Shown one piece after another: positions 44,680-52,631 of a stretch of DNA of 64,000 nucleotides. The stretch covers positions 186,001 to 250,000 of the forward strand of contig NZ_VTZS01000006.1 of the NCBI RefSeq assembly GCF_008367235.1, written 5' to 3'. Position numbers and translations under genes: made by a program. The DNA comes from Pareuzebyella sediminis (GTDB taxonomy: Bacteria; Bacteroidota; Bacteroidia; Flavobacteriales; Flavobacteriaceae). The notes under the pieces were generated by a model. That model searched no databases. It saw only the letters and a program-made list of their open reading frames with translations, and had not been told where the DNA came from. Each line of letters begins with the position of its first letter. Positions within the stretch are counted from its first letter, which is position 1.

Positions 44680-45015
44680 TTAGCGAACTATACGAACAGG
44701 TACAGTGTATACTTTACCTTCAATGTATTTTTCAAGGTTGACTTTTTTGTAGTTCAACTTTGCCTTTACGAAACCTTCTAGCAAACTATCAGGCGTATCA
44801 ACCGATAGTACTACGATTTCCTTTTCATTGTTCAGGGTAAATCTTACCTGCGCGGTCATATCTACCTTGTCTATGGTGAATGAATTGTCACTCAACATCT
44901 GGGCAATTTGTACTGACAATTTTTTTGAAGGATTAACGCTATCGACATCATTTGCCAATAAACTTCCTGAAGATAGTAGCATTGCAGCTACCAAAACTAA
45001 ACTAAATTTTCTCAT
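44680..45015 (-). CDS. Small exported protein resembling a stand-alone TonB C-terminal domain
   Basis: Starting at the ATG at 45015 gives 111 residues with a normal signal peptide (MRKFSLVLVAAMLLSSGSLLA). The longer frame from 45138 adds an implausible hydrophobic stretch. The mature part is about 85 residues with the pattern AQVRFTLN...IVVLSVDT...LEGFVKAKLNYKKV...Y.EGKVYTVPVRI. This follows the strand-helix-strand plan of a TonB C-terminal domain but has no membrane anchor and no proline spacer. The protein at 52290 is a clear paralogue. Function unknown, probably periplasmic. A near-perfect palindrome lies in its leader at 45031-45052. Confidence 0.7.
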   Translation of the reverse strand: MRKFSLVLVAAMLLSSGSLLANDVDSVNPSKKLSVQIAQMLSDNSFTIDKVDMTAQVRFTLNNEKEIVVLSVDTPDSLLEGFVKAKLNYKKVNLEKYIEGKVYTVPVRIVR

Positions 45016-45030
45016 GACTTTGTTTTTAAG

Positions 45031-45052
45031 ACTTGTCCGTTTCCGAACAAGT
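45031..45052. repeat. Palindrome upstream of the small exported protein
   Basis: ACTTGTCCG and CGAACAAGT, separated by TTTC, form 9-bp arms with one mismatch. The site is 16 bases upstream of the start codon at 45015 on the minus strand. It is followed by tandem ATTGATGA-like repeats. It could be an operator or a leader hairpin. Confidence 0.4.
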
Positions 45053-45214
45053 GATTGATGAATTGATGAATAAATTAATTGATTACTTAAAAGACGACCG
45101 AGAAAGAAAGTTGTTACGACAAAACCAAGGTTTAACATAATTTTAAGAAAAAGCGGATGGCATCTTTAGTTGTATCATTGAACGCTTAGCGAATTCAACA
45201 TTATGAAAGTAAGG

Positions 45215-45676
45215 CTAAGAATCAAAACTAATATGTCTACTGGCTCTTTCCTCCAATGAGATGAACGACTCTACCCCTTGTATACCCTCTATAGTAAGAA
45301 TAGACTCTTGATAAAGTTGCCGGTAATGAATGCTATCCTTGGCGTGAACTTTTATAAAAACATCATATTTACCCGTACTATGGTGCACCTTGACCACCTC
45401 GGGCACCTCAAGTAATTTTTCGATGACTTTTTCATACAATGAAGCTTCTCTCAGATAAATCCCTAGAAAAACAGTTAGCTTCCAACCCATTTTGCTATAA
45501 TCCAACGTTAAGGTAGCCCCCCTTATGACACCTAGGTTCCTCATCTTTCGCATACGCATGTGAACGGTTCCGGGCGAAATTCCGGCGCGCTTGGCGACCT
45601 CCGTATAGTTCATCTGGGCATCCTCAGTCAACAAAGTCAATATTCGATGGTCGACTGTATCAAGTCTATCCTTCAT
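45215..45676 (-). CDS. Lrp/AsnC family transcriptional regulator
   Basis: This 153-residue regulator has an N-terminal winged helix-turn-helix (about 4-55; DAQMNYTEVAKRAGISPGTVHMRMRKM) and the RAM/AsnC ligand-binding domain at about 65-140 (VFLGIYLREASL, VKVHHSTGKYDVFIKV). Family members sense amino acids and bind AT-rich DNA. It is divergent from a TonB-receptor, lipoprotein, aminotransferase and permease locus, with a 561-base AT-rich region between. The natural inference is that it controls that locus in response to an amino acid. Ligand unknown. Confidence 0.93.
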   Translation of the reverse strand: MKDRLDTVDHRILTLLTEDAQMNYTEVAKRAGISPGTVHMRMRKMRNLGVIRGATLTLDYSKMGWKLTVFLGIYLREASLYEKVIEKLLEVPEVVKVHHSTGKYDVFIKVHAKDSIHYRQLYQESILTIEGIQGVESFISLEERASRHISFDS

Positions 45677-46237
45677 CTGTTATCTATTTTAAGTTCAAGC
45701 TGCCTCGTATAATCGGAAAATGGCGGCACCTTTCTCATATTATCAAATCTTCATAAAAATTAGCACAAATGAAGATTTTTGTAAATATAATTTAAGGTTT
45801 TAAAAAAAATGGATATAATATCATAATATAATTAGCTTTTTATTGAATTTTATCTAAAATAGAAAGAGGCAAATTTTGAATACAATAAAAATGAATTTTC
45901 ATCTGTTTTTTTAATAATCGAGAGTTTTTGACCTCCTTTCGGATACAATACTGTTGAATCGTTAAAAAAAAACTTAAATATTTTTTTTTCGTCACGTTAA
46001 TTCAATATAACTACCATAATTTCAGCTATTTACGAGCTCTTCTAATTTTTATATATCAAAAACTCCCCCTAATATTGTGGCTGTTGTTTAGCCTAAAAAT
46101 CACTGTTAAATAACATAGAAAGTATCCGGAACTTTTCTTTTGAAATGCATTTGCCCCACCAACCTCGAGTAAAGGATAACCTTGATCATGTGGATGGTAC
46201 AACGGGCAGTATTAGTATCAACTAAACCTTAACTCTT
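45677..46237. other. AT-rich divergent regulatory region
   Basis: No gene is supported in these 561 bases between the Lrp-type regulator and the TonB receptor. The stretch is markedly AT-rich, with long A and T runs, which suits Lrp-family binding. The first part of the receptor transcript's long leader probably also lies here. I could not pick a single clean promoter. Confidence 0.45.
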
Positions 46238-49183
46238 ATGAAGAAAGCTCTATTACTATCTGTTGTTCTTTTAAATACGTTGTGCATCGCTTATGCACAG
46301 GAAATCATGATAACCGGAAAGGTTATTGATGACCAGGGCGTAGTATTGCCAGGTACGGACGTTATTATAAAAGGAACCACCAAAGGGGCTACCACTAATT
46401 TTGACGGGGAATATACTATTGATGCCCCTGCCGATGCAGTGCTAGTCTTCTCCTCCCTGGGATTTGGCTCAAAAGAAATTCCGGTTAATGGACAGAAAAC
46501 GGTCGATGTCATTCTTATACCTGCTGCCGAGCAATTGCTTGAAACCATTGTTATCGGTTCAAGAGGGCAACCCAGAACCAAATTGGAGACCCCTGTGCCA
46601 GTTGATGTCATAAATGTCAGCCAGCAGGCGATTAATATGCCTCAAACTGATTTAGGTGACGTATTAAGGGCCTCGGCACCCTCCTTCAATGCGTTTCAGT
46701 CACAAGCCGGAGATTTGTCGTCGCACGTCGTTCCTCCTACATTAAGAGGTCTGGCACCCAATCAAATGCTAGTTTTGATTAACGGCAAAAGAAGACACTC
46801 TTCTGCCTTATTGTTAGGCAACCAAACGGGTTCGAGTTCAAATGCCACCGATATGAGTTTTATACCCACTGCTGCTGTAGAACAAGTAGAAATTTTGAGG
46901 GATGGGGCTTCGGCACAATATGGATCCGACGCCATCGCCGGTGTGATGAACATTATAATGAAGAAAGGAACCGATAAACTTACCGCCATGTTAAGCATGG
47001 GGGGATATCCAGGATTAGAACCTGATATGAGCGATCAGTTGACCCCTGAAGAAAACATACTTTCAAGGGATTTCGACGCAGATGGGTTCAATTATCAATT
47101 TGATGGCAACTACGGAGTAGGCTTTGATAACGGAGGTTATCTTAACGTTACAGGCACGCTGAGACAGGCCAAAAGAAGTATAAGGCCCTCAGTTTTAGGA
47201 ATTGACAGGTCCCCGCTTTATAGTAGTGATTATCTCAACAATGAGACTACCGACTTAAATGGTAATCCTGTCATTACCAATCCAGAGCTGGTCAATGCCT
47301 TGGCCGCTGGCAATACGGCCCTAGCCGGAGAATTGACAACAATAGAAGGATTGATGGACGCTCGCGGCATTGAACAACGGGACGTAGCCTCTTACGCAGG
47401 TAATCCTGCCATAAACTTGGGTGTATTAGCGTACAATTTTTCCATGCCCTTAACAGAAAACGTAGATCTCTATTCTTTTGGCGATATCGGGTTCAAATAT
47501 GTTGAAGGCTTTAGTTGCTTTTATCGAAGAGCGGCTCAAGCAGATCGAACGAGTTATGCGCTTTACCCTAACGGCTTCAGGCCCCAAATGTACTCCAATC
47601 AGTTCAATACCAGCTTTGCTGCCGGGGTTTCCGGTACTCTGGGCGAGTTCAAATTTGACCTGAGCAATACCTTTGGCGCCAATAAAATGGCGATAGGAAT
47701 GTTCAATACCTGGAACGCCAGTATCGGGGAATCCTCACCTACCGATATGTATCTTGGAACCCATAATTATTTACAGAATACTACGAATTTGGATATCAGC
47801 CGATATTATGATGATATCCTTTCAGGACTTAACATTGCAGGTGGCGTAGAATATCGCGTTGAAAGATATCAAATAGAAGAAGGTCAAAGAGAAGGATGGA
47901 CTGCCGGAACAGCCGGTATATATACGGCGACCGAAGATAATGAAGCCTTGGTTGGCCCTGATGGCCTTCCATTGGAAGATTTGAGTGGCACACCCATTGT
48001 GGATGGGAATGGAAATGCCGTCGTACTACCGTATGCGGGTTACAGCGCCGAACTCGTTAAAGGATACGCTTTGAACTGTCAGTGCTTTCGCGGATTCGGA
48101 CCGGACAATGCCAGCCGAAACTATAGGTCGGTCATTGGTGCCTATCTCGACGTAGAAATGGATTTTACCGATAATTTCTTCATGGGTTTGGCTGTTCGAT
48201 CGGAAGCCTACTCGGATTTCGGAAAGGTCTTGACCGGAAAAGTAACTTCAAGACTCTCGCTTTCGGACAATTTCGCGATTCGGGGCTCCTTCAGTAACGG
48301 CTTCAGGGCACCATCGTTACAGGAATTGAACTATTCACATAGCTACACGTTCTTCGTCAATCTGGTACCCTTCGATGGTACGTTATACCGCAATAGCAGT
48401 GCCGCTGCCCGAGCCATCGGAGTGACACAACTTCAAGAAGAAAGATCGACTAACTTCAGTTTTGGTTTCACCACCAAATTATTCGACAAATTAGAGTTGA
48501 CGGTCGATGCCTATAAAATTGATATAACAGACCGCATCTTTCAGACTTCCGAATTCGATGCCACCGAAGCACCGGCTCTTGGTCCGGTCATCGGATCTGG
48601 TCTAGCCAGTTTTAGAATAAACGGAGGTGATGTCAGCACAAAAGGAATCGAGGTGGTCGCGAACTATACAACTTTTTTTGGACAGAACAAGTTTAATGCT
48701 ACCCTTTCAGGTACGTTCCGTGAAAATAAATTCGATCAGGTCGTAGTACCCGAACTCAATACTTCTTTGACCGATGATGAAGTGGCCGCGAAATATGTAG
48801 ACAGGGCCTCCATAGGACAATTTGAAACAGGTACGCCCAGTTCTACGGTAATCGGTGCACTAAATTATTCTTTCGGAAAATTTAGCACCATGATCAGAGG
48901 TACGCGTTATGGGTCTGTCGTCAACTTGGCGGCACGCGAGCAGAATCTCTACGGTGGTGGTTTTGGATATCCCGACCAAACCTTTACCCCTGAATTCGTA
49001 GTCGACTTGGGCATCACTTATGCCTTTAACGACATGTTGAGTCTCACTATCGGTGGGAACAATATATTCAATGAATATCCCGAGATACACCGTTATGAAA
49101 ACCGTAGTTTCAGCCTGTTTTCAAACTATCAGCAAGGATCTAATGGATCATATTATTTCGGACGTCTAACACTCACGCTATAA
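46238..49183 (+). CDS. TonB-dependent receptor with carboxypeptidase-like N-terminal domain
   Basis: This 981-residue outer-membrane receptor takes up a nutrient using energy from TonB. The signal peptide ends at YAQ near 21. A carboxypeptidase-regulatory-like beta-sandwich covers about 24-95 (ITGKVIDDQGVVLPGTDV, TNFDGEYTI). The plug spans about 110-245 (LINGKRRHSSALL, VEILRDGASAQYGSDAIAGV). The rest is a beta-barrel ending in YYFGRLTLTL, with the last residue aromatic-rich. An unusual CQCFRGFG segment lies near 615. No SusD homologue is nearby, so this is not a standard polysaccharide locus. Its stop overlaps the start of the lipoprotein frame (TAATG). Confidence 0.93.
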   Translation: MKKALLLSVVLLNTLCIAYAQEIMITGKVIDDQGVVLPGTDVIIKGTTKGATTNFDGEYTIDAPADAVLVFSSLGFGSKEIPVNGQKTVDVILIPAAEQLLETIVIGSRGQPRTKLETPVPVDVINVSQQAINMPQTDLGDVLRASAPSFNAFQSQAGDLSSHVVPPTLRGLAPNQMLVLINGKRRHSSALLLGNQTGSSSNATDMSFIPTAAVEQVEILRDGASAQYGSDAIAGVMNIIMKKGTDKLTAMLSMGGYPGLEPDMSDQLTPEENILSRDFDADGFNYQFDGNYGVGFDNGGYLNVTGTLRQAKRSIRPSVLGIDRSPLYSSDYLNNETTDLNGNPVITNPELVNALAAGNTALAGELTTIEGLMDARGIEQRDVASYAGNPAINLGVLAYNFSMPLTENVDLYSFGDIGFKYVEGFSCFYRRAAQADRTSYALYPNGFRPQMYSNQFNTSFAAGVSGTLGEFKFDLSNTFGANKMAIGMFNTWNASIGESSPTDMYLGTHNYLQNTTNLDISRYYDDILSGLNIAGGVEYRVERYQIEEGQREGWTAGTAGIYTATEDNEALVGPDGLPLEDLSGTPIVDGNGNAVVLPYAGYSAELVKGYALNCQCFRGFGPDNASRNYRSVIGAYLDVEMDFTDNFFMGLAVRSEAYSDFGKVLTGKVTSRLSLSDNFAIRGSFSNGFRAPSLQELNYSHSYTFFVNLVPFDGTLYRNSSAAARAIGVTQLQEERSTNFSFGFTTKLFDKLELTVDAYKIDITDRIFQTSEFDATEAPALGPVIGSGLASFRINGGDVSTKGIEVVANYTTFFGQNKFNATLSGTFRENKFDQVVVPELNTSLTDDEVAAKYVDRASIGQFETGTPSSTVIGALNYSFGKFSTMIRGTRYGSVVNLAAREQNLYGGGFGYPDQTFTPEFVVDLGITYAFNDMLSLTIGGNNIFNEYPEIHRYENRSFSLFSNYQQGSNGSYYFGRLTLTL

Positions 49184-49716
49184 TGAAAGCATCAACAATA
49201 AACAGCACAACGATGAAAAAAATAATCGCACATATTTCTTCTTCCGTACTCATACTCTTGATTTTGGTTTCATGTGATCAAGAACGTCTAGAACCTGTAT
49301 TAACCGCGGCGGACGGTGGAGGTAAAATGACTTCTTTCATGGCTTATACCATTGGTACGGAGTCCGATAGTGATGTCTATGGCAGGGTGGTTTTCTGGAA
49401 AGATGCCATCGGACGAACGCAAGTTCAAGTATCCGTATATAATACGGAAGTAGGCGCTACATATCCTGTAAGCTTGGTCAACGGAAGTGTGGCAACAGCC
49501 GGTAGCGAATTAATGGCGATATATGATCTTATAGGGAAAGAAACAAATGGTTTGGTATTCGGGGAACTTGGAGAAAATAAGTTCTTTACAATTACCGATA
49601 CGGCTTTTTATGATGCTCTTCCGGCACTTGATGCCCACATCAGTATTTATTCAAACGGTGGCGTAATTGCCTCCGGTGATATCGGGGCGAATGCGACACC
49701 AATTGAAATGAATTAG
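49183..49716 (+). CDS. Small lipoprotein of unknown function
   Basis: Two starts are possible: the ATG at 49183, which overlaps the receptor's stop, or the ATG at 49213, which begins the signal peptide (MKKIIAHISS). Either way a lipobox LVSC places the lipid-modified Cys at residue 31 (or 21). The mature part of about 150 residues is rich in beta strands and resembles no family I can name. The gene lies between the TonB receptor and the Tat-exported aminotransferase and is presumably part of the same transcript. A surface ligand-binding role would fit, by analogy with other receptor-lipoprotein pairs, but this is a guess. Confidence 0.75.
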   Translation: MKASTINSTTMKKIIAHISSSVLILLILVSCDQERLEPVLTAADGGGKMTSFMAYTIGTESDSDVYGRVVFWKDAIGRTQVQVSVYNTEVGATYPVSLVNGSVATAGSELMAIYDLIGKETNGLVFGELGENKFFTITDTAFYDALPALDAHISIYSNGGVIASGDIGANATPIEMN

Positions 49717-49745
49717 AACTTTTAACAACTTAAATATTTAGCACT

Positions 49746-50936
49746 ATGAAAACAACAGTAAACAGAAGAGATTGGCTCAAAAGAGGCGTTCTCACCGCTG
49801 CGGGAGTAATGGCAGCACCTTATTTGACCTACGGGGCATTTCCATCGCAACCTATTAAAGTAGATGCACAGGGAAATATTCCGTACACTCCATTTTTCAA
49901 GGAGTATTTACCTTACGCACCTACACAACCGATTGAACTGGCGGCAAAAATCAATGCCAACGAAAACCCTTATGGCCCATCTCCAATGGCCGTAGATGCC
50001 ATGCAGAAATACGCACCAAAGGGCAACCGCTATGCTTGGAAGGAACTATACGAGTTGATGGATAAAATAGCTTTGGAAGAAGGCGTAAAGCAAGAAAATA
50101 TCATGATGGGTCCTGGATCTTCTGATCTTTTGGAGAAAACGGCCATGGTATTCTTTAAGGAAGGTGGAAACATCGTCTCTGCCGATCCAGCCTATATGTC
50201 ATTGATTAAAGTTGCCGAAGCGACCGGTGCAACCTGGAAGCCTATTCCACTTAAAAAGGATTGGTCACATGATTTAGCGGCGATGGAAGCTGCGGTTGAT
50301 GCAGATACCAAATTAGTGTATATCTGTAACCCGAACAATCCTACGGGCAGTATGACCGATCATGATGAATTGATCGATTTCTGTTCCAGGGTTTCTGAGA
50401 AGACGCCTATTTTCGTCGATGAAGCCTATTTAGGTTTCTTGGAAGACGGTGCTAAAAAGAGTATGGTTTCCTTAATCAATAAGGGGAAAAATGTCATCAT
50501 AGCCAGAACATTTTCCAAAATACAGGGTATGGCCGGCCTTCGTGTTGGTTATATAGTGGCCCAACCTGACACTTTGGAGGTCATTCAAAAGGTCACACGC
50601 GGTGGAATGGGAATCACCTTGCCATCCGTATACGCCGCCATGGCAAGTATGGACGATGTTGCCTTCAAAAACAAATCAAGAACACTGAATAAGGAATGTA
50701 GAGAGTATGTCTACGAAAACTTGGAGCGTATGGGCTTTGATTACGTACCGTCTTCTACGAGCTTTATACTCTTCCCTATAGAAATGGAGGGCAAATCATT
50801 CTTGGAAAAAATGACCGCAGAAGGTGTTGGCGTCAGAGCCTTTGACATCTATGGCCGAAACTGGTGTCGTGTAAGCATGGGCACCATGGACGAAATGAAA
50901 ATTTTTACTTCGGCCTTACAGAAAGTGCTAGTTTAA
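49746..50936 (+). CDS. HisC-like PLP aminotransferase with Tat export signal
   Basis: The 396-residue protein opens with a Tat signal: the twin-arginine motif NRRDWLK at 6-12, a hydrophobic region, and a cleavage-like stretch before residue 40. The rest is a class I/II aminotransferase of the histidinol-phosphate/HisC type: NENPYGPSP near 72, YICNPNNPTGS near 195, FVDEAYLGF near 222, and SKIQGMAGLRVGY with the PLP Lys258. Because Tat exports folded proteins with cofactors, the enzyme should work in the periplasm, which is unusual for this family. It sits between the lipoprotein and the AEC permease. A role in amino-acid processing during uptake is an inference. Confidence 0.85.
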   Translation: MKTTVNRRDWLKRGVLTAAGVMAAPYLTYGAFPSQPIKVDAQGNIPYTPFFKEYLPYAPTQPIELAAKINANENPYGPSPMAVDAMQKYAPKGNRYAWKELYELMDKIALEEGVKQENIMMGPGSSDLLEKTAMVFFKEGGNIVSADPAYMSLIKVAEATGATWKPIPLKKDWSHDLAAMEAAVDADTKLVYICNPNNPTGSMTDHDELIDFCSRVSEKTPIFVDEAYLGFLEDGAKKSMVSLINKGKNVIIARTFSKIQGMAGLRVGYIVAQPDTLEVIQKVTRGGMGITLPSVYAAMASMDDVAFKNKSRTLNKECREYVYENLERMGFDYVPSSTSFILFPIEMEGKSFLEKMTAEGVGVRAFDIYGRNWCRVSMGTMDEMKIFTSALQKVLV

Positions 50937-50946
50937 GTTGAGTTAG

Positions 50947-51015
50947 CCCAAAGAGCCGGATTGGAGAGAAATTGCCTTGATATTCTTATAGGTCCGGCTC
51001 TCTCTGGGTTATTTT
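50947..51015 (+). terminator. Long hairpin between the aminotransferase and permease genes
   Basis: AGAGCCGGA (50952-50960) and TCCGGCTCT (50993-51001) form a 9-bp GC-rich stem, extended by CCCA/TGGG pairing, with TTATTTT after it. It fills most of the 115-base gap, so it could act as a full or partial terminator and lower permease expression. Confidence 0.55.
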
Positions 51016-51051
51016 CTAGTATAGATTAACGCTAAAATTTCTAAATACTTT

Positions 51052-52212
51052 ATGAACTTCGCACTTCAAAATACGCTGGAACTTCTATTGATAATAGGTC
51101 TAGGCTTGCTTTTACAAAAAAAAGTGGCCAAACAAGATTTAAAGGGAGTTAAAACGATTATTCTTAGTGTGGCATTACCATCCGTAATTTTTGTGGCACT
51201 CTTAAAAATTAAGTTGGAAAGCTCGCTATTGGTATTTCCTTTATTGGCACTTTCCTTTAACTTGATTATGCTCGCCGCTTCAAAATATATTTTGGGTGCC
51301 TCCCTTCCTAAAAATGACGATTCTAAAAAAAGAACGGTCATGATGTTACTGCCCTCTTTGGCCCCAGGCCTTTCTTGTTTTCCCTTCATCGTGGTTTATC
51401 TCGGGGACGACTCCTTGGCATTGGCGGCACTAGCTGATGTCGGAAACAAAATTTTTGGGCTTATTCTTTTGTATATGCTGGCCATGCACTGGTACCATCT
51501 TCGATCGATCAAGAACCTCAAGGCCTCAACAGGCAGCAAACTTCGCAGTTTGGCCCTTGCTTTGGTAAAGGAGCCCATTAATATGGTCATTATTGTGGGA
51601 TTGGTCTTATTGACCGTCGGTCTCAATATGGAATCACTTCCTCTGTTCATGCAGAATACCATACAAAGTCTGAAAATCTTGATGACGCCGTTAGTGTTAT
51701 TGTTTATCGGAATGGCGGTACGGATCAAATCAGGTGAATTTGGAGTAATACTTTCCCTCTTGGCAAGAAGAGCCGGTATTACTTTCTGCCTTTCTGCCAT
51801 ATTCGCTTTTCTCTTTCCTGCACTTACGCCCGCCTTAATATTGCTCTTAGTGGTTTTTCCTCAAAGCGCCTGTAGTTTTTGGCCCTTTGCACATATGAGT
51901 GCTGTAAGTGCCCTCGAAGAAAATGACGAACAAAAAATCCCAACGTTCGACATTAACTTTGCGGTTAATATCTTGGCCTGTTCCCTACCATTTTCAACCA
52001 TCTTGATCATTAGTGTTTTCTCATTAAGTGAATTCTTTGTCAACCCCACAGTCATCCTCACTACGGGCATAAGTATGATAACTCTATCATTCATACCCTA
52101 TTTTATTAAACGTCTCGGAAAATCAAAATCGGAAGAGGTAAAATCCGGGAGGGCTACCTATAACGAATATGCGGGCTTTAACACTTCGGCCCAATCGTCG
52201 GAAGAAAGTTAG
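51052..52212 (+). CDS. AEC family permease (auxin-efflux-carrier type)
   Basis: This 386-residue integral membrane protein has about ten transmembrane segments in two five-helix halves. The first half includes IIGLGLLLQKKVAKQ, LSVALPSVIFVALL and LPSLAPGLSCFPFIV; the second half has the PLVLLFIGMAV motif typical of the AEC family and the SACSFWPFAHMSAV segment near helix 9. The last 40 residues are a charged cytosolic tail. AEC members carry malonate, malate, amino acids or auxin-like acids. Here the preceding receptor and Tat-exported aminotransferase suggest an amino- or keto-acid substrate. The call to AEC is good, the substrate unknown. Confidence 0.78.
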   Translation: MNFALQNTLELLLIIGLGLLLQKKVAKQDLKGVKTIILSVALPSVIFVALLKIKLESSLLVFPLLALSFNLIMLAASKYILGASLPKNDDSKKRTVMMLLPSLAPGLSCFPFIVVYLGDDSLALAALADVGNKIFGLILLYMLAMHWYHLRSIKNLKASTGSKLRSLALALVKEPINMVIIVGLVLLTVGLNMESLPLFMQNTIQSLKILMTPLVLLFIGMAVRIKSGEFGVILSLLARRAGITFCLSAIFAFLFPALTPALILLLVVFPQSACSFWPFAHMSAVSALEENDEQKIPTFDINFAVNILACSLPFSTILIISVFSLSEFFVNPTVILTTGISMITLSFIPYFIKRLGKSKSEEVKSGRATYNEYAGFNTSAQSSEES

Positions 52213-52234: not shown

Positions 52235-52262
52235 AAAAAAGGCCCGTTACCGGGCCTTTTTA
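52235..52262. terminator. Bidirectional Rho-independent terminator
   Basis: AAAAAAGGCCCG and CGGGCCTTTTT form a strong stem with a TTAC loop. It lies between the convergent permease gene and the small exported-protein gene and works in both directions. Confidence 0.85.
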
Positions 52263-52289: not shown

Positions 52290-52631
52290 TTATTTTTTAA
52301 CCTCTATAGGTATACGGTATACGATTCCTTTTTCATAGGTTCCTTTACCCAGTTTTTGAAAATCGATGCTACTTCGCACAAAATCTTCCATAGCTTCATT
52401 TTCTGTATCGACCGAAAGTATTCTCAAATGGTTTCCACGATCTACGGCTACGCGAACTTCAGCTTTAGAACCACGTATCTCATCGGGAATATTATTCTCT
52501 CCGAGCATCTCGTAAATTTGAGATGCAATGGCTTTGGCGGGATTCGGAAACGCCGGCTTCGCATCGGCGGCCACCACATAACCCACATTAAATGCCATCG
52601 CGATTACCAATGTTAGTAAAGTCTTTTTCAT
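52290..52631 (-). CDS. Small exported protein, paralogue of the one at 44680
   Basis: The protein has 113 residues, with a signal peptide (MKKTLLTLVIAMAFNVG, ending near VVAA). The mature part ends with AEVRVAV...LRILSVDTENEAMEDFVRSSIDFQKL, followed by a Tyr-Glu-Lys-Gly motif and YRIPIEVKK. This matches the 44680 protein along its whole length (LSVDT, FV, Y..G.VY..P). The order resembles a TonB C-terminal domain without an anchor. It is probably periplasmic; function unknown. It shares a bidirectional terminator with the AEC permease gene on the opposite strand. Confidence 0.7.
   Translation of the reverse strand: MKKTLLTLVIAMAFNVGYVVAADAKPAFPNPAKAIASQIYEMLGENNIPDEIRGSKAEVRVAVDRGNHLRILSVDTENEAMEDFVRSSIDFQKLGKGTYEKGIVYRIPIEVKK

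Follow-up and report, generated by a model that had tools for sequence, protein, structure and literature searches.

The locus at positions 45215-52212 of a 64,000-nucleotide stretch of the Pareuzebyella sediminis genome (contig NZ_VTZS01000006.1, positions 186,001 to 250,000; the window) encodes, in this order, an AsnC/Lrp-family regulator, a TonB-dependent receptor, a small lipoprotein, an aminotransferase (AT) with a twin-arginine translocation (Tat) leader and an inner-membrane carrier of predicted PIN/AEC fold. Its stable core is the AT with the carrier, and the outer-membrane part is interchangeable. Because the two core genes stay adjacent while the outer-membrane part is swapped, the locus probably reflects a mode of nutrition in marine Bacteroidota that has not been described. 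The most economical reading, which we put at about an even chance, is that a compound enters through the outer membrane and is transaminated in the periplasm, after which the product is taken through the inner membrane. All five open reading frames (ORFs) are present at the predicted coordinates:

45215-45676, minus strand: AsnC/Lrp-family regulator, divergent from the receptor gene (PF01037 E 1e-16, PF13412, PF13404)
46238-49183, plus strand: TonB-dependent receptor with a CarboxypepD_reg-like N-terminal domain (Pfam)
49183-49716 (likely start 49213), plus strand: lipoprotein of 177 residues, probable receptor partner (lipobox)
49746-50936, plus strand: Tat-signal class-I pyridoxal phosphate (PLP) aminotransferase (PF00155 E 7e-52)
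51052-52212, plus strand: PIN/AEC-fold inner-membrane carrier (structure model, weak family matches)

The gene identities given in a preliminary description of this DNA are borne out, by Pfam for the regulator, receptor and AT, by a lipobox for the lipoprotein and by fold for the carrier. Of its overall interpretation, co-conservation, the Tat-type leader and, at the level of fold, the AEC assignment also stand; it is refined in that the stable core consists of AT and carrier.

Two sets of loci were compared. Counting the own genome, carrier matches occur in 5/60 genomes of relatives, 10/395 of the phylum and 44/397 of the family (one weak match in each), and every locus with a strong match outside the own genome was fetched (47 loci). 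The weak match of G055 (L009) and the second match of G245 (L026), also weak, have no adjacent AT and were left out of the relatives; the weak matches of G401 and G579 are likewise outside the counts. A GTDB genome scan supplied the second set, the best 80 of 371 carrier relatives; 14 of the 47 loci have a carrier core identical to one of the 80, and the union holds 112 distinct carriers. No carrier relative was found in a scan of viral_contigs. The AT gene lies directly upstream of the carrier gene, on the same strand, at 47/47 loci of the first set (split in L113) and at 79/80 of the GTDB set, where L213 starts at a contig end. Over the distinct carriers this amounts to 111/112, the exception being the locus cut by the contig end, and the synteny across Bacteroidota proposed earlier as a check is thus found for this pair. 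Two of the 80 loci, L204 and L213 (named Thalassobius/Thalassovita, Roseobacteraceae), are from metagenome bins with this otherwise Bacteroidota carrier and are probably misplaced contigs or contaminated bins.

What precedes the pair differs. The full five-gene set is present at 47 of the 112 distinct loci, a SusC-SusD pair at 15 and neither at 50; receptor and SusC-SusD were sought by BLAST with our queries only, and receptors unlike these queries fall into 'neither'. Receptor and lipoprotein together with the regulator are found at 46/80 (GTDB) and 15/47 (first set) loci, the five-gene hosts being Maribacter, Arenibacter, Zobellia, Euzebyella, Pseudozobellia, Pricia, Cellulophaga, Saonia, Fulvivirga and others. 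SusC-SusD stands ahead of AT and carrier at 13/80 and 2/47 loci (Echinicola, Neolewinella, Flexithrix, Rhodonellum, Saprospiraceae and others), in most cases with a small lipoprotein between SusD and AT; this lipoprotein has a conserved ELDKSGILD..GID-like stretch in L020, L188, L190, L192, L193, L203, L205, L207, L208 and L211. On a carrier tree made from both sets, a quick tree with several long branches and 111 rows including the window (51 receptor, 15 SusC-SusD, 43 neither, two uncounted), the partner label needs at least 12 changes; SusC-SusD alone accounts for eight, at least six of them forced by well-supported branches. The median gaps are 28 nucleotides (nt) between receptor and lipoprotein, 28 nt between lipoprotein and AT (45 loci) and about 120 nt between AT and carrier. 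The flanking genes vary by genus, with sucC and DUF1456 next to the block in Zobellia relatives and different genes in Maribacter; the block is therefore not kept together by a single shared neighbourhood. Directly after the carrier, on the same strand, 8/80 and 4/47 loci (Zobellia, Pricia) have an alanine dehydrogenase gene, whose product, in the one tested, scores 508 bits (cut-off 391.85); these loci are L137, L139, L140, L142, L143, L145, L149 and L158, and L007 and L084-L086.

The genes of the locus have separate histories. Over 48 distinct five-gene loci, pairwise distances give a partial correlation of 0.70 between receptor and lipoprotein and of 0.72 between regulator and carrier, the members of each pair agreeing best with one another; the AT stands apart, with 0.29 to the carrier and at most 0.16 to the others. 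The receptor, lipoprotein and regulator of the window are nearest to Euzebyella marina (91, 80 and 80% identity), its AT to Maribacter (92%) and its carrier to Pseudozobellia (82%; Euzebyella 79%), and the identity steps of this mosaic coincide with gene ends (window against L135, L177 and L182). The AT data reject the carrier grouping [approximately unbiased (AU) test, p 7e-42], a grouping picked after the identities had been seen and supported at 85, not starred, on the carrier tree. By these partial correlations, nearest relatives and the AU rejection, receptor and lipoprotein behave as a unit and the AT is exchanged at the locus. That AT exchange tracks the receptor-lipoprotein type is little supported, since the partial correlation of the AT is 0.03 for the receptor and 0.16 for the lipoprotein.

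The AT matches PF00155 (Aminotran_1_2) with 177.2 bits against a cut-off of 19.7. Its N-terminus MKTTVNRRDWLKRG is by sequence a Tat motif, in which the twin-arginine motif NRRDWLKRGVLTAAGVMAAPYL (NRRDWLKRG) precedes a hydrophobic stretch. The arginine pair occurs in the N-terminal region of 111/111 distinct ATs including that of the window (109 within 60 residues, two with over-long ORF starts), and a stricter Tat motif fits 104/111. The leader of a 'Tat-exported aminotransferase', as the gene was first described, is therefore upheld by the sequence; with such a leader throughout the 111 ATs the enzyme very probably lies outside the cytosol. In an alignment of 28 members the arginine pair, NPNNP, DEAY, TFSK (with its lysine) and R375 are invariant; apart from the arginine pair, we take these to be the expected class-I PLP residues. 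Among the 25 NCBIfam models listed the AT passes no cut-off. It scores 257.9 bits with HisC histidinol-phosphate transaminase (TIGR01141, cut-off 276.55), 280.1 with PRK09105 (444) and 222.6 (E 5.8e-66) with PtaA (NF051461, 500), and because of this last shortfall it is not filed as PtaA. The own genome has a second AT with an arginine-pair leader (L226). It also has a more distant HisC-like homolog (27% identical, L227) whose neighbours, by reading, form a his cluster, so the role of HisC does not require the AT. Sister ATs without the carrier (some 35-43% identical) adjoin, by reading, a gene for a Tat-leadered flavoprotein at 9/18 loci; the one tested matches L-amino-acid oxidase 2jae (E 1.5e-103) and PF01593. 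As half of the sister loci have this oxidase-like neighbour, amino-acid deamination outside the cytoplasm is a likely theme of the enzyme group. The sister loci L117-L124 and L126 often also encode a secreted protein (in the one tested, with a Hint module) and form a second possible periplasmic amino-acid module.

The carrier of the window has no Pfam match at E<=1, and the own-genome search with PF03547 is likewise empty. In its family, PF03547 picks up 18 of 42 aligned members at E<=1, the best at 2.2e-6, but not the protein of the window. One relative, L207, gives E 2.2e-9 with TIGR00946, the model for auxin efflux carriers, at 36.9 bits and so below the cut-off of 246.05. By sequence, PDB searches return chance matches at E 0.26 and worse, or none. 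The structure model (pLDDT 85.6) superimposes best on LYCHOS [PDB-id: 9jbf, Z-score: 26.1, root mean square deviation: 3.7 over 319 residues] and PIN8 [PDB-id: 9g0w, Z-score: 23.3, root mean square deviation: 3.6 over 303 residues], and with Foldseek the first 26 rows are all LYCHOS or PIN. PIN1 follows with a Z-score of 21.4, level with the antiporter NHA2 (21.0) and SbtA (20.8); ASBT reaches 18.9. In the model, then, the fold is of PIN/AEC type, which says nothing of the cargo. The name 'AEC permease' in the preliminary description holds at the level of fold. An initial doubt about the label, raised by the missing PF03547 match of the window protein, was overturned by the alignment, the fold and the weak matches of relatives.

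The receptor contains a Plug domain (PF07715, 3.2e-19), a TonB barrel (PF00593, 4.6e-27) and CarbopepD_reg_2, and fails the SusC/RagA cut-off (TIGR04056, 144.6 against 368.25 bits). Its nearest paralog in the own genome (34%) is divergent to an M20 peptidase gene, a weak hint that amino acids or peptides are taken up. For the lipoprotein the likely start is 49213 (MKKIIAH..., lipobox LVSC), because its relatives begin near this position and the median receptor-lipoprotein gap is 28 nt (45 loci). In the relatives an acidic residue mostly follows the lipobox cysteine and a glutamate usually stands two further on (SCEQERL, SCDLERL and similar). Acidic residues after the cysteine of a lipoprotein are a possible surface-export signal. 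The lipoprotein matches no Pfam family at E<=1, a Pfam scan of its relatives gave no useful match either, and against PDB sequences there is one match, at E 1.1. Its model is poor (pLDDT only 66.2) and has SOD as top Foldseek match (E 6.8e-3), with none at 0.001; CHRD gave no match in the Pfam scan of 16 family members.

The regulator has an AsnC-type helix-turn-helix (PF13404) and a ligand-binding domain (PF01037), both over the Pfam cut-off. Its best NCBIfam model is AsnC (NF008384, 128.5 bits, cut-off 227), which scores above Lrp, both below cut-off; of the 'Lrp regulator' first proposed, the AsnC/Lrp family and the divergent orientation are retained. Between the regulator and receptor genes lie two short elements:

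46069-46078, plus strand: promoter-like CTAATATTGT, a conserved block in 12 chosen upstream regions
46120-46137, plus strand: candidate regulator operator AAGTATCCGGAACTTTTC, pseudo-palindrome AAGT-N-TCCGGA-ACTT

The first, CTAATATTGT, has one mismatch to the flavobacterial -7 box consensus TAnnTTTG (PMC9723704), and AAGTATCCGGAACTTTTC begins about 40 nt after it. The palindrome, near-invariant as AAGTNTCCGGAACTT, is situated in the leader of the receptor gene. With at most one mismatch it is present at 39 of the 48 GTDB-set loci that have a divergent regulator (20 exact, 19 with one); the other nine have two (one locus), three (three), four (one), five (two) or seven mismatches (two), and the receptor is absent from one of the two five-mismatch and one of the two seven-mismatch loci. 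Shuffled 560-nt stretches gave 0/300 with three mismatches or fewer, the letters being permuted singly and the compared loci being related. The arms covary, AAGT/ACTT becoming AAGC/GCTT in L138 and L172 and AAGTATCAGATACTT in Fulvivirga L181. The 16-base core has a single exact copy in the own genome; at two differing bases it has five places, against ten for the reversed control. From this pattern we read the palindrome as a candidate operator of the divergent regulator; since the site would fall within the leader RNA, it may also act in RNA.

Two further elements are hairpins, in the gap between AT and carrier and after the carrier:

50941-51013, plus strand: conserved RNA hairpin with loop ATTGCCTTGAT
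52235-52261, plus strand: terminator-like hairpin (fold z -3.6)

For the hairpin between AT and carrier, pairs were counted in 15 hand-picked rows with the structure read off one of them. The inner helix is paired in 99.2% of cells, with both sides changed in 5/8 pairs, whereas pairing of the outer helix is weak, at 65.9% of cells. Two-sided changes occur in 17 cells, against 5.9 in shuffles, and further pair types are no more frequent than in shuffles (13 against 12.7). A first alignment of 33 AT-carrier gaps showed no structure, and its model R1, which has no base pairs, was not used. The loop ATTGCCTTGAT is strongly kept, with GCCT or GTCT in 36/48 loops. Folding of the whole gap gives a moderate z of -2.65 for the window alone and a mean of -3.97 over 48 loci (with our own shuffler). 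A covariance model has a single significant match in the own genome, at 50941-51013, and its best match is the AT-carrier gap in nine of ten other genomes, five of which supplied training rows; the search of the Zobellia uliginosa genome (G001) gave no significant match. These genome searches scored 150 of some 1,400-2,200 first-look candidates per genome, which bounds the statement of one copy. Outside the training rows the model matches at E<0.01 at 10/18 further receptor-type loci and 0/15 others (34 sources). The hairpin matches no Rfam family; a similar one is present in the AT-carrier gap of many of the loci L135-L200. A classical terminator is unlikely, at least five T in the next eight nucleotides being found at 11/48 loci (some tails shortened by the fold). 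As a steady U-tract is lacking, we favour a regulatory or processing element that would set the carrier level relative to the AT, and the hairpin is a candidate for a new cis-regulatory RNA. The hairpin after the carrier was not listed by a simple terminator scan. The sigma-70 scan is at chance (17 against 18.5), as is the terminator scan (six against 8.4). Beyond these elements small, probably secreted proteins are encoded on the minus strand on both sides of the locus (44680-45138 and 52290-52631), also in Zobellia-type relatives; the first has a weak PepSY_2 match, the second no Pfam match.

Taken as a locally regulated uptake-and-conversion system, to which we assign an even probability, the locus would work as follows. 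Receptor and lipoprotein would bring an amino-acid-like compound, be it a free amino acid, a derivative or a small peptide, across the outer membrane; the AT, exported by Tat with its PLP loaded, would remove or move the amino group in the periplasm; and the PIN-fold carrier would take the product, most simply a 2-oxo acid, through the inner membrane. It might exchange this product for the amino acceptor or for what the acceptor is turned into (pyruvate/alanine). Alanine or pyruvate is suggested as reaction partner by the alanine dehydrogenase gene that follows the carrier in Zobellia and Pricia. The divergent AsnC-type regulator would sense an amino acid and act at the palindrome before the receptor gene, and we infer a single transcript for the system. 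That either of two unlike outer-membrane importers is encoded at the same position counts for uptake. A stricter version, conversion-coupled import, is a tentative proposal and somewhat doubtful: only the 2-oxo acid would cross the inner membrane, the amino group would return on alanine, and a cytosolic dehydrogenase would regenerate pyruvate where present. If it is true, AT and carrier are a two-gene periplasmic transamination-transport machine onto which varied outer-membrane importers are plugged, and a bacterial counterpart of the transaminase and PIN carrier pairing.

Several observations weigh against uptake with conversion. At 30/47 loci of the first set, BLAST with our queries found neither receptor nor SusC-SusD beside AT and carrier, so a tie between the pair and outer-membrane uptake is not obligatory; L159 and L179 have regulator, AT and carrier without the receptor, while the palindrome is missing from L180, which does have the receptor. 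The regulator reaches no equivalog cut-off, the 115-nt hairpin-bearing gap could uncouple carrier expression, and the best match in the window genome to the alanine dehydrogenase is only 34% identical. With NHA2 tied with PIN1, and SbtA and ASBT not far below, the modelled carrier fold is shared by a wide superfamily, and AEC proteins include exporters, so that the carrier may also work outward.

The loci without an adjacent importer speak for another explanation, that AT and carrier are a self-contained module and that receptor and lipoprotein, linked but functionally separate, serve peptides. The distinct exchange histories of the receptor-lipoprotein unit and the AT speak for it too. We consider it unlikely in view of the short spacing of receptor, lipoprotein and AT (medians of 28 and 28 nt, 45 loci) and of an order kept at 46/80 loci despite differing flanks (Zobellia, Maribacter, Arenibacter, Fulvivirga).

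Tailoring or release of a metallophore is improbable. The receptor would import an amino-carboxylate chelator, the AT would modify its amino-acid part in the periplasm, freeing the metal or marking the chelator, and the PIN-fold protein would move the product. Such chemistry has a precedent in PtaA, a Tat-exported transaminase that reportedly modifies, in the periplasm, the glutamate of the siderophore pyoverdine (PMC6206403), and the AT matches the PtaA model, albeit below its cut-off. Siderophore receptors are the best PDB matches of the receptor; these matches cover mostly the plug region, however, and include B12 receptors and SusC homologs. The AsnC type of the regulator also argues against a metallophore, and the SusC-SusD pair at other loci argues for a nutrient.

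The carrier finds its top structural matches in PIN auxin carriers and in LYCHOS, within the PIN-like part of the latter, which could be taken to indicate export: the AT would make an amino acid or a 2-oxo acid such as the auxin precursor indole-3-pyruvate, the carrier would export a related acid for algal-host signalling or metal binding, and the receptor would only import the precursor. Several host genera of the GTDB set are known from seaweeds, which would suit such signalling. Since the AT faces the periplasm, its product would already be outside the inner membrane and an exporter superfluous; the two types of outer-membrane importer, like the amino-acid-type regulator encoded at the locus, also point inward. 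We regard export as quite improbable. Chance adjacency of an ordinary receptor, aminotransferase and permease is hardly credible given the five-gene order at 47/112 distinct loci and the AT-carrier pair at 111/112.

Import with periplasmic transamination thus remains the reading preferred here, and if it holds it has wider meaning. The scheme on which Bacteroidota nutrient loci handle glycans, with import, conversion outside and transport inward, would extend to amino compounds, and the AT-carrier pair would suggest a cargo for an unassigned branch of the AEC fold. A description of the module was not found in literature searches covering open-licence papers.

The closest studied analogue of the AT in kind is the periplasmic transaminase A (PtaA) of Pseudomonas fluorescens, which is exported folded with PLP via Tat and is active in the periplasm; this activity has been called surprising, and a suggestion of other periplasmic roles is reported (PMC6206403). 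Periplasmic PLP chemistry looks rare in print, and an AT-carrier pair with exchangeable importers would supply such a role. Like PtaA, the AT has a Tat-type leader and the residues of a PLP transaminase and would work in the periplasm, but PtaA tailors a siderophore and is usually encoded outside the pyoverdine cluster, whereas the AT is paired with a PIN-fold carrier at 111/112 distinct loci. The carrier shares with bacterial AEC proteins and PIN auxin carriers (PF03547, TIGR00946) the PIN-type fold of its model and, in relatives, weak profile matches; unlike these, the window protein is a divergent branch without a Pfam match, encoded beside a Tat-leadered AT. Predicted TonB-dependent receptors belong to the amino-acid regulons HutC and HypR in Proteobacteria (PMC5343134), again an outer-membrane receptor under an amino-acid regulator; the regulators are different, and the parts of that study available mention no periplasmic transaminase. 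The SusCD/RagAB loci of Bacteroidota likewise have a TonB receptor followed by a lipoprotein, and a true SusC-SusD pair stands ahead of AT and carrier at 13/80 loci, but the receptor of the window falls below the SusC cut-off and its lipoprotein, of 177 residues, is without a Pfam match.

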